Positions 28,543 to 61,286 of a stretch of DNA of 64,000 nt are shown here, piece after piece; positions within the stretch are counted from its first letter, which is position 1, and every line of letters begins with the position of its first letter. This DNA is from Halorubrum sp. BOL3-1 (lineage in GTDB: Archaea; Halobacteriota; Halobacteria; Halobacteriales; Haloferacaceae), in assembly GCF_004114375.1 (NCBI RefSeq), contig NZ_CP034692.1, positions 372,001 through 436,000 of the forward strand, in the 5' to 3' direction. Below the pieces are notes generated by a model that was not told where the DNA came from, did no database searches, and was given only the letters and a program-made list of their open reading frames with translations. The position numbers and the translations under genes were made by a program.

Positions 28543-29748
28543 TTACGTTTCCGTGTCGTCCTCGGTAAGGACCTCTTTCACGACGCCCGGATCTTCGAGA
28601 AGTTGGTGTTTCGTGTAGCTACCCTCAGCGCTACCGCCGCTGTGTTTCGACTGTTCGATGATGTCGAGAAACGCGTGTTCTTTCAGGAGGTCGCGAACGC
28701 GTCGCAGCGAGAGGCTGTCAGACCCTTCCTGTCGACAGATGTTCTCGTATATCTCGTACACTCGACTCGTCCGGAACCCGTCCTGTCGGCCGTTTGAGAG
28801 CGACAACAGCGCGAGCGCCTGAAGGACGTATCGCGAGTGAGGGGTAGATCCGCGGATAAGTTCGCGGAATCGATCGGTCTCCGCTCGCTCGCGTGCCTGT
28901 GTGACGAACTCCTCGCGGACCGTGGGTTCGCTGTTCGCCTGCGCGATCTCGCCGGCGTACCGGAGGATATCGATTGCCTTCCGGGCGTCACCGTGTTCGC
29001 GTGCGGCGAGCGCGGCGGCACGGGGAATTGTCGACGGCTCGAGAACGTCGTCGTGGAACGCGTCCGCACGTGCCTGCATGATCTCCCTGAGTTGGTTCGC
29101 GTCGTACGGCGGGAAGACGAACTCGCGTTCGCAGAGGCTCGATTTGACGCGTTCGTCCATCCGATCTTTGTACTGAATCTTGTTGCTGATCCCGACGACG
29201 CCGAGCTTACAGTCGGTGATCTTTCCGGCCTCACCGGCGCGAGACAGCTGCATCAGGATGGCGTCGTCGTCGAGCTTGTCGATCTCGTCGAGGAGGATCA
29301 GGACGACATCGTATCGTTGGTCGAGGATCCGCCAGAGGCGTTTGTAGTACGTTGAAGTCGAGAGTCCTTTATCAGGGACGTTGATACCGGTCTCTTCGGG
29401 ATCGTTGACGCTCTCAGCGATCGTCTGGACCGCCTGTGTCTCCGTGGTGTCTTGCGCGCAGTCGACGTAAGCGAACGTCGCCGTGACGCCTTCCTCGCTG
29501 GCGGTCGAAACGAGCCGCTTCGAGACGTACTTCGCACACAAGGACTTCCCGGTACCTGTCTTTCCGTAAATGAGCACGTTACTCGGACTCTGTCCGAAAA
29601 TAGCCGGATTGACCGCCGTTGCCAAGTCGGCTATCTCGTCGTCTCGACCGACGATACGTCCCTCACCCGGTAGGTGGCTGATCTCGAGGAGTTCCTTGTT
29701 CGCGAAGATGGGATCCTCTCTGGTAAAGAGGTCGTCCGCTGCGTCCAT
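28543..29748 (-). CDS. orc1: Orc1/Cdc6 replication initiator
   Basis: A 401-residue AAA+ initiator recognising the adjacent ORB elements. Walker A is IYGKTGTGKSLCAKYV, Walker B VLILLDEIDKLDDD, with sensor 1 LGVVGISNKIQYKDRMD, sensor 2 DARKAIDILRYAGEIA, and a C-terminal winged helix (about 310-395). The start MDAADDLFTREDPIFANKELLEI fits the family. A longer in-frame form would begin with GTG at 29793, but those 15 codons overlap an ORB (encoding FHRKPG), so the ATG at 29748 is preferred. The gene is transcribed away from the origin. Confidence 0.96.
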   Translation of the reverse strand: MDAADDLFTREDPIFANKELLEISHLPGEGRIVGRDDEIADLATAVNPAIFGQSPSNVLIYGKTGTGKSLCAKYVSKRLVSTASEEGVTATFAYVDCAQDTTETQAVQTIAESVNDPEETGINVPDKGLSTSTYYKRLWRILDQRYDVVLILLDEIDKLDDDAILMQLSRAGEAGKITDCKLGVVGISNKIQYKDRMDERVKSSLCEREFVFPPYDANQLREIMQARADAFHDDVLEPSTIPRAAALAAREHGDARKAIDILRYAGEIAQANSEPTVREEFVTQARERAETDRFRELIRGSTPHSRYVLQALALLSLSNGRQDGFRTSRVYEIYENICRQEGSDSLSLRRVRDLLKEHAFLDIIEQSKHSGGSAEGSYTKHQLLEDPGVVKEVLTEDDTET

Positions 29749-29755
29749 GAGGGAG

Positions 29756-29775
29756 ACACCGGGTTTCCGGTGAAA
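29756..29775 (-). repeat. ORB1
   Basis: ACACCGGGTTTCCGGTGAAA, immediately upstream of the preferred orc1 start, so Orc1 binding here could also repress its own gene. Confidence 0.88.
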
Positions 29776-29837
29776 TGCGTTCTGTTTTGTCACTGCCCGC
29801 GAGGCACGGTCAAGGCGTTACCTGCTGGTCGAGACAC

Positions 29838-29857
29838 ACACCGTGTTTCCGGTGAAA
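29838..29857 (-). repeat. ORB2
   Basis: ACACCGTGTTTCCGGTGAAA; same orientation as ORB1, 82 bases away, on the left side of the first AT-rich segment. Confidence 0.9.
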
Positions 29858-30138
29858 AGAGGCGGAGAGCACTGGGTAGGAAAGACGGAGTGGGCGGGCG
29901 GGGAACTGACTGATGGAACCAAATATGGACAGTAAACCAGAGAATGAGTAGAATAGCGGTCTAAAAGCGTTAGGACAGCGACCCATGGATAAGCAGACTT
30001 GATAAATGTAACAACGTTTGAATCGATGGATCCGATTTTCGTGGATGAAGCTCGGGTCCTCATGAACGGGGAGAAGATAGTAAAGATAACACATAAAGAA
30101 TGTAAAAATAATACGACGAAAGGCTTCTAACTGCCTTG

Positions 30139-30158
30139 TTTCACCGGAAACGAGGTGT
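30139..30158 (+). repeat. ORB3
   Basis: TTTCACCGGAAACGAGGTGT, inverted relative to ORB2, on the right side of the AT-rich segment. An identical copy occurs at 60769. Confidence 0.9.
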
Positions 30159-30195
30159 TCGATAAGCTGGGGTTCTCCAACCCGCCAAAGGGGAG

Positions 30196-30213
30196 ACCGC
30201 GTTTCCGATGAAA
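30196..30213 (-). repeat. ORB4 (degenerate)
   Basis: ACCGCGTTTCCGATGAAA carries two changes from the ORB core but keeps its length and orientation (same as ORB1 and ORB2). Confidence 0.65.
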
Positions 30214-30358
30214 TGCTCACTATCGCTTAGCGTGCTATCGCTCTTCCTGCTTGGCGAACTGTACTCTGTAATGACTAATAAAATCTGTTGTTTTGTATCG
30301 AACATAACAAGCGGATCAACGCCGAGACGACACTCTCCCTTACCCCACTACACTCCAC

Positions 30359-30378
30359 TTTCACCGGAAACACGGTGT
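30359..30378 (+). repeat. ORB5
   Basis: TTTCACCGGAAACACGGTGT, inverted relative to ORB4, closing the second AT-rich segment; it lies 40 bases from the end of the HTH gene. Confidence 0.9.
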
Positions 30379-60129: not shown

Positions 60130-60687
60130 CTACTCTCCGATGTCCTGACTCAATCCTGCGCGGAGGTCGCGACCGAAGTAGTGCCCGAGCAGCGCGAGCG
60201 TCAAGCCGACGCCTCCGCCGACCGCGACGAGCGGGAGTCCCCACTGCGAGAGGTAGTCGATCCCGATCGGGAGGAACCCGACGCCGAGGACGCTCGTCAC
60301 CGAGCTCACCGCGCCCGCCGCGGCCCCGGCGGTCCCGGTCTCGGCGTACCGGCGCGTCGAGACGACGAGACCGAGCAGGAACGCGGCGACGAACACCCCG
60401 CCGGCAGTCCCGATCGTCCCGCCGATGATCGGGATCAGGCCGCCGACGAAGACGCCGACCGCGACCGTGACGAGCGCGAGCGCGAAGGCCTTCGCCGAGA
60501 ACCACCGGCCGGAGACGCCGATCCTGCCGGCGTCCCCGGCGCTCCCCGCGCTCGGTTCTGCGGTCGCTGCGCCGCCCGTCTCGGCGCGGGACTCCCCCTC
60601 GCCGTCCGCGAGGTCGTCGTCGAGGAGCTCGTCGACGTCGTCCATCGGGTCGCCCTCGGACGACTCGCGCTCCTTGGAGGGTTGCAT
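60130..60687 (-). CDS. Haloarchaeal membrane protein (DUF456-like)
   Basis: A 185-residue protein with an acidic N-terminus of ~60 residues (DDVDELLDDDLADGEGE) and four Gly/Val-rich helices (FALALVTVAVGVFVGGLIPIIGGTIGTAGGVFVAAFLLGLV). It resembles glycine-zipper membrane proteins such as DUF456, with low confidence. The ATG at 60687 is preferred; upstream codons run through the promoter GGACTTGGCTTTTGTG toward the ORB. Confidence 0.65.
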   Translation of the reverse strand: MQPSKERESSEGDPMDDVDELLDDDLADGEGESRAETGGAATAEPSAGSAGDAGRIGVSGRWFSAKAFALALVTVAVGVFVGGLIPIIGGTIGTAGGVFVAAFLLGLVVSTRRYAETGTAGAAAGAVSSVTSVLGVGFLPIGIDYLSQWGLPLVAVGGGVGLTLALLGHYFGRDLRAGLSQDIGE

Positions 60688-60768
60688 ACCAGAGGGTTCG
60701 GCCCCGCGGACTTGGCTTTTGTGCCGTCCGTCGCCACACGGCTGCGTGTGACGCGGTACCGTTCGCCG

Positions 60769-60788
60769 TTTCACCGGAAACGAGGTGT
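60769..60788 (+). repeat. Distal solitary ORB element
   Basis: TTTCACCGGAAACGAGGTGT is identical to ORB3 at 30139, with the preceding G also matching. It lies in the gap between a membrane protein gene and a ferredoxin gene, 30.6 kb from the origin, with no orc1 gene or AT-rich element nearby. Confidence 0.88.
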
Positions 60789-60810: not shown

Positions 60811-61209
60811 CTACCTCTCGCGTGAACCCCCGGTGTCCGACTCCGGGTCCGACCGCCGCCCGCCCCACACGCGCTTGTCGACGAGCGCGACCGTCATGGG
60901 GCGGTCAACCGCGATCCGACAGGAGAGCCGCGGGTAGCCGAACCGGTCGGCGAGGCGGTCGTGCCAGTGGTCGGCCGGCGGTCCCTCCCGGACGCGAACG
61001 CCGCAGGTGGCGCACAGCCCCCGACCGCCGCAGTTGAGTCGGCGCGTCGCGGGCGCGTACGGCGACAGCCCGGCGTCGAGCAGGACCCGTCGGAGGTTCC
61101 GTCCCGGTTCGACGTCGAGTTCGACCCGGTCGTCGCCGTCGACGACGACGACCGGGACCGTCTCGCCGTCTCCCTCACCGGTGGCGTCGCCCTCGGCGGT
61201 CTCGGTCAT
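60811..61209 (-). CDS. 2Fe-2S ferredoxin
   Basis: A 132-residue plant/adrenodoxin-type ferredoxin. Cluster ligands are C60, C66 and C69 in NCGGRGLCATCGV and C97 in RLSCRIAV. The N-terminal 15 residues are acidic. It likely carries electrons in the cytoplasm, with an unknown partner. MTETAEGD at 61209 is preferred over an ATG nine codons earlier. Divergent from birA. Confidence 0.9.
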   Translation of the reverse strand: MTETAEGDATGEGDGETVPVVVVDGDDRVELDVEPGRNLRRVLLDAGLSPYAPATRRLNCGGRGLCATCGVRVREGPPADHWHDRLADRFGYPRLSCRIAVDRPMTVALVDKRVWGGRRSDPESDTGGSRER

Positions 61210-61286
61210 CGCCGGCCCTTCGCGCGCCGGACACAAAGCGTCCGGGACCCGGAACGGCTTTCGGCGCGGGCGTCGGATCGAGCGGT

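Follow-up and report, generated by a model that had tools for sequence, protein, structure and literature searches.

The window, that is, the whole 64 kb stretch of DNA that was analysed (G000:C3:372001-436000), holds an oriC1-type origin and, about 30 kb from it, a solitary ORB designated S1. The features are given below by position and strand; the origin ORBs were located by pattern search.

28543..29793, minus strand: Orc1/Cdc6 initiator gene of the oriC1-type origin (PF22703, PF09079), the presumed binder of S1
29756..29775, minus strand: origin ORB
29838..29857, minus strand: origin ORB
30074..30133, no strand: AT-rich stretch of the origin (72% AT over 60 bp), likely the unwinding element
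30139..30158, plus strand: origin ORB identical to S1
30194..30213, minus strand: weak origin ORB with 3 mismatches to the S1 sequence
30359..30378, plus strand: origin ORB
60130..60687, minus strand: predicted membrane protein with no Pfam match; S1 is upstream of this gene in Halorubrum
60746..60768, plus strand: left flank of S1, about GTGTGACGCGGTACCGTTCGCCG, at a fixed spacing from the ORB and conserved in Halorubrum
60769..60788, plus strand: solitary ORB, site S1, TTTCACCGGAAACGAGGTGT, an exact origin-ORB match conserved at the orthologous place
60811..61236, minus strand: 2Fe-2S ferredoxin-like gene (Fer2, PF00111); S1 is just past its stop codon

The sequence GTTTCACCGGAAACGAGGTGT was found at 60768-60788 and at 30138-30158, on the plus strand both times. 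The 20-mer of S1 (60769-60788) and the origin ORB at 30139-30158 agree in 20/20 bases, or in 21 when the preceding G is counted. When the 64 kb window was searched with this 20-mer at up to 3 mismatches, six matches were obtained, five within the origin cluster at 29756-30378 and the sixth at S1, and the chance expectation from shuffles was 0.00. This verifies the preliminary description, in which S1 was an exact ORB copy over 21 bases and the match was far beyond chance in 64 kb. The 3.67 Mb genome as a whole, examined only through pattern queries and individual stretches, gave nine matches at the same threshold, comprising the five in the origin, S1, C3:751788, C3:1766365, and C3:3332254; the reversed-pattern control gave 0 in the same genome. 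The match at C3:1766365 (3 mismatches) falls within a topoisomerase-like reading frame and was set aside. No match to the S1 locus was found in the plasmid collection searched. The window's genome contains about 12 Orc1/Cdc6-like places, and the oriC1-type ORB pattern is confined to the origin in the window and to the lone sites.

S1 lies in the gap between the stop of the ferredoxin-like gene and the start of the membrane-protein gene at 60687. No orc1/cdc6 gene adjoins it. No AT-rich element was found at S1; the richest nearby 60 bp reach 38% AT, a value near the median of the window (32%), compared with 72% at the origin. Nor does S1 have a second, inverted ORB with which to enclose such an element. 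The site is intergenic, without orc1 and without an AT-rich element, as had been described. The same features weigh on the proposal, also made earlier, that S1 is a relic origin, or on a related one, that it is a cryptic start used if oriC1 fails. Dormant origins are known from haloarchaea, as in Haloferax mediterranei (PMC4595724). A single ORB with no inverted partner, no orc1, and at most 38% AT does not resemble such an origin, and a relic would be expected to decay, yet the S1 ORB is nearly invariant and apparently under strong selection. We regard a dormant or relic origin as very doubtful.

The conservation of S1 was measured at orthologous loci. A search with the membrane protein gave 42 loci that were compared for an ORB beside the gene; 23 of them (L010-L032) were assigned to Halorubrum or a close relative, and 19 to other genera. 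All 23 Halorubrum-group loci have a same-strand ORB, at 0-3 mismatches, 92-312 bp upstream of the membrane-protein gene start; none of the 19 loci from other genera has one, the best candidates there having 7-9 mismatches. In an alignment of 29 S1 sites, the ORB carries a mean of 1.85 bits per base. Its variation is nearly confined to bases 14-15, the same bases that vary among the origin ORBs, and the base preceding S1 at the orthologous sites is usually G. Since these free bases vary across orthologous sites and the preceding G is usual, the 21-base identity between S1 and the origin is best read as a shared consensus and not as a recent duplication. The flanks differ: the left 20 bases hold 1.15 bits per base, and the right flank is unconserved at 0.31. 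The preliminary description had named a lack of Orc1 binding together with a lack of conservation in related genomes as its refutation; on the side of conservation, with the ORB kept in 23/23 loci and in all 30 Halorubrum genomes followed in detail, the alignments strongly favour a function for S1.

S1 belongs to a set. Nearly all of the 42 Halorubrum genomes scanned carry lone ORBs besides the origin cluster, and when 80 lone-ORB places from 29 genomes were typed by their neighbouring genes, all but two were S1, S2, or S3. The exceptions were L107, which is within a reading frame and not a lone intergenic site, and L136, which is the origin itself (orc1 start). S2 is located just past the 3' end of an FAH-family gene, mostly before hflX, which is unrecognisable in many genomes. 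S3 occupies the gap where the 3' ends of ndk and a PQQ-like gene converge. With the window's genome counted, and with sites at 2 mismatches admitted for complete genomes, S1 was found in 30/30, S2 in 26/30, and S3 in 28/30 genomes. Where the chromosome is complete, the distance to the origin is about 31-67 kb for S1, 53-363 kb for S2, and 146-468 kb for S3; the exceptions are one genome with S1 at 622 kb and another with S2 at about 1.08 Mb, a circular contig being assumed. In the complete Halorubrum chromosomes compared, S2 and S1 are on one side of the origin and S3 is on the other. The genome-wide search for solitary copies, which had been proposed at the outset, thus places S1 in a genus-wide set, with three sites in most Halorubrum genomes. 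Separately, two Halorubrum genomes share an ORB-like sequence, TTTCACCGGACTCGAGGTGT, on a second contig that may be a plasmid (G013:C2:14530 and G038:C2:100091).

Lone ORBs were also sought in a family sample of 60 genomes from 25 genera, and ORB matches were obtained in 17 of the 25. Eight genera (g2, g3, g4, g9, g11, g13, g14, and g23) gave no oriC1-type ORB match at one mismatch in whole genomes, and their ORB sequence has probably diverged. None of the lone sites fetched from other genera used the S1 or S2 places. One site in genus g24 (L223, G082:C3:226139) is a lone ORB past ndk like S3, on the opposite strand, which suggests an independent gain or an inversion relative to S3. The commonest class outside Halorubrum is S4, with 19 genomes in 9 genera, located downstream of bcp, a gene of the AhpC/TSA family, and usually facing the 3' end of cdc48. 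Neither an ORB nor a remnant of one was found at bcp in the four Halorubrum loci checked, the best candidate having 6 mismatches. The window's genome has its bcp (G000:C3:3320847-3321308), without an ORB, at 11 kb from S3, and the corresponding distance in other Halorubrum genomes is 31-380 kb. Classes S5-S9 recur within genera. S5 lies before, and upstream of, a co-directional TrkA_N/DHH protein gene; S6 follows an aminotransferase gene and S7 an amino-acid-kinase-family gene, both between convergent gene ends; S8 follows dnaJ; and S9 is between the convergent ends of gyrA and an arginase-family gene. Because the other genera use non-orthologous places, chiefly S4, and the Halorubrum bcp loci are without an ORB, these comparisons show a small set that persists although its individual sites turn over from genus to genus. 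The oriC1-type motif also occurs in other families, with occasional lone copies, in a sample of the class.

Conserved companions accompany some of these ORBs. At S4 loci (L226, L229, L175, L177, and others), CAACTAGTTG followed by AGTTTa is conserved about 5-30 bp to the left of the ORB, and at the S7 loci L183, L187, and L189, GTGCTAGCAC is conserved to the right. Both are CTAG-centred palindromes, which may bind a partner protein.

Several matches were set aside because they fall in genes. S10 (L215/L217/L218) matches the ORB perfectly or nearly so and occurs in three genus g10 genomes, some 200 kb from the origin; it probably reflects coding constraint, since both flanks are equally conserved and the ORB is in the coding frame. 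L163/L196 and L193/L198 are also within reading frames. Such intragenic, coding-conserved matches (S10 and L193/L198) show how chance or coding constraint could produce an ORB; S1-S3 are intergenic, have a chance expectation of zero, and are conserved only at the site itself, so for them this explanation is already refuted, and we give it practically no weight.

The placement of the classes was then compared with the origin. The median distance from the origin was 0.04-0.23 of the half-chromosome in five classes, with P about 0.0006 if placement were uniform; only contigs over 2.7 Mb were used, and S5, S6, and S9 were excluded because their short contigs would bias towards nearness. Among the nine intergenic classes, five (S3, S4, S6, S7, and S9) lie in convergent gaps, four in co-directional gaps, and none in divergent gaps. 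The convergent expectation is about 11-13% from window gaps of 40 bp or more, giving P of 0.001-0.003, or 0.05 with a 25% prior. Both tests treat the classes as independent and rest on small numbers, and the gene calls come from a GC3 heuristic backed by BLAST and Pfam, not from annotation. No fixed spacing from the origin was found, the distances of the lone sites being loose. A fixed orientation away from the origin holds for S1, S2, and S3 alike in the window's genome, G019, G022, and G033, and was rejected as a rule since it is broken elsewhere, including in other genera; strand relative to the origin varies for S2 and S3 between Halorubrum genomes and also between genera. Because strand relative to replication is not fixed, the data argue against a polar fork barrier or a KOPS-like element.

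The gap types bear directly on the earlier suggestion that S1 regulates its flanking genes. Orc1 bound at S1 might repress or activate the membrane-protein gene, and elsewhere lone ORBs might act in promoter control or as a 3'-end roadblock. S1 is upstream of this gene in every Halorubrum locus, its conserved flank faces the gene, S5 is upstream of a co-directional gene, and Sulfolobus Orc1-2 is a DNA-damage transcription regulator (PMC9738581). A promoter operator would be expected at a fixed promoter position with a conserved target, but the distance from S1 to the start codon spans a threefold range, and S3, S4, S6, S7, and S9 occupy promoter-free gaps in which two genes converge. Moreover, the absence of a recognisable hflX beside S2 in many genomes and the lack of a function common to the neighbours do not fit this reading. 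Local gene control is disfavoured as a general explanation, and we consider it unlikely.

The same convergent, mostly promoter-free gaps would suit sites that serve as landmarks of the origin domain. Here Orc1 at a few lone ORBs would organise or segregate the origin region, with Orc1 itself or a flank-bound partner as the anchor, comparable to the part played near bacterial origins by a handful of single parS sites. The sites are few, single, exact, and mostly origin-proximal, they follow no strand or spacing rule, the origin separates S2 and S1 from S3 in those complete Halorubrum chromosomes that were compared, and the class-specific flanks are conserved, including the CTAG-centred palindrome at S4 and S7. 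On the other hand, the distances from the origin are loose, and a role of Orc1 in haloarchaeal segregation or looping was not found in the literature searched. This role is an improbable one for the set, in our judgement.

The reading that we tentatively favour, at a little under an even chance, is that S1 is a selected extra-origin Orc1 site and that the set tunes the supply of Orc1, datA-like in effect. We infer the binding of Orc1, the titration effect, and its timing. Each ORB takes one Orc monomer (PMC7776575), bound with polarity (PMC7776575; PMC12141716), so a lone ORB could hold Orc1. Each lone site would bind Orc1 without firing, since an origin requires an inverted ORB pair and an unwinding element, and a single ORB with no inverted partner and no AT-rich element should not support helicase loading or opening. 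Together, the set would lower or buffer the Orc1 available to oriC1. Origin-proximal sites would be duplicated soon after initiation and would then damp re-initiation in the way that datA-type loci act on DnaA. Titration, likewise among the earlier proposals, fits these features and may claim a haloarchaeal precedent, the 11 ORBs of Haloarcula hispanica oriC2D, which restrain oriC2, likely by titrating Cdc6E (PMC3936714). The strand variation between genomes is tolerable under titration.

Several points count against Orc1 titration. Three single sites against 4-5 origin ORBs give a modest capacity, and the effect may be small; haloarchaea are also polyploid, which counts against a sizeable effect. 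Titration alone would not need the exact intergenic place of each class, though vertical descent would give it. The class-specific conserved flanks hint at more than a bare Orc1 site. The positions of S1 at 622 kb in one genome and of S2 at about 1.08 Mb in another count against this reading as well.

Earlier haloarchaeal surveys considered only gaps adjoining orc/cdc6 genes (PMC3528665), and lone ORBs would therefore have been missed by design. No report of conserved solitary ORBs was found in the literature searched, with subscription papers and preprints outside its scope, and novelty is thus not proven. In broader terms, we think it probable that haloarchaeal chromosomes keep a few conserved single ORBs on the flanks of the main origin, occupied by Orc1 without firing. 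From dispersed cis sites they would control the initiator or organise the origin domain; individual sites would turn over between genera, whereas the set itself and its closeness to the origin would last. If true, this would be a dispersed cis system of a kind undescribed before in archaea, in which the prevention of over-initiation is poorly understood. The three sites are 20-bp, non-coding, and outside any origin, and can be mutated singly in a tractable haloarchaeon. Mutation of S1-S3 would be a direct test of dispersed-site initiator control in archaea and of chromosome roles of Orc1 beyond origin firing.

The lone ORBs were compared with known systems. Like datA and other bacterial DnaA-box clusters, they would be initiator-binding sites away from the origin; the initiator differs, and the bacterial loci are clusters with helper proteins, whereas each lone site holds one 20-bp box and no cluster of the datA or oriC2D type. 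Similarly, bacterial chromosomes carry few, single, exact, origin-proximal parS sites, which are bound by ParB, while the lone sites have the archaeal ORB sequence instead. The oriC1-type haloarchaeal origin (PMC3528665) has the same 20-bp ORB as S1; unlike this origin, S1 has no orc gene, inverted ORB partner, or AT-rich element. The oriC2D of Haloarcula hispanica, downstream of cdc6E (PMC3936714), is an 11-ORB cluster directly beside its cdc6, whereas the lone ORBs sit in unrelated intergenic gaps at distances of tens to hundreds of kb. The two are alike in placing ORBs outside the minimal origin, where titration of Orc1/Cdc6 is proposed to restrain initiation.
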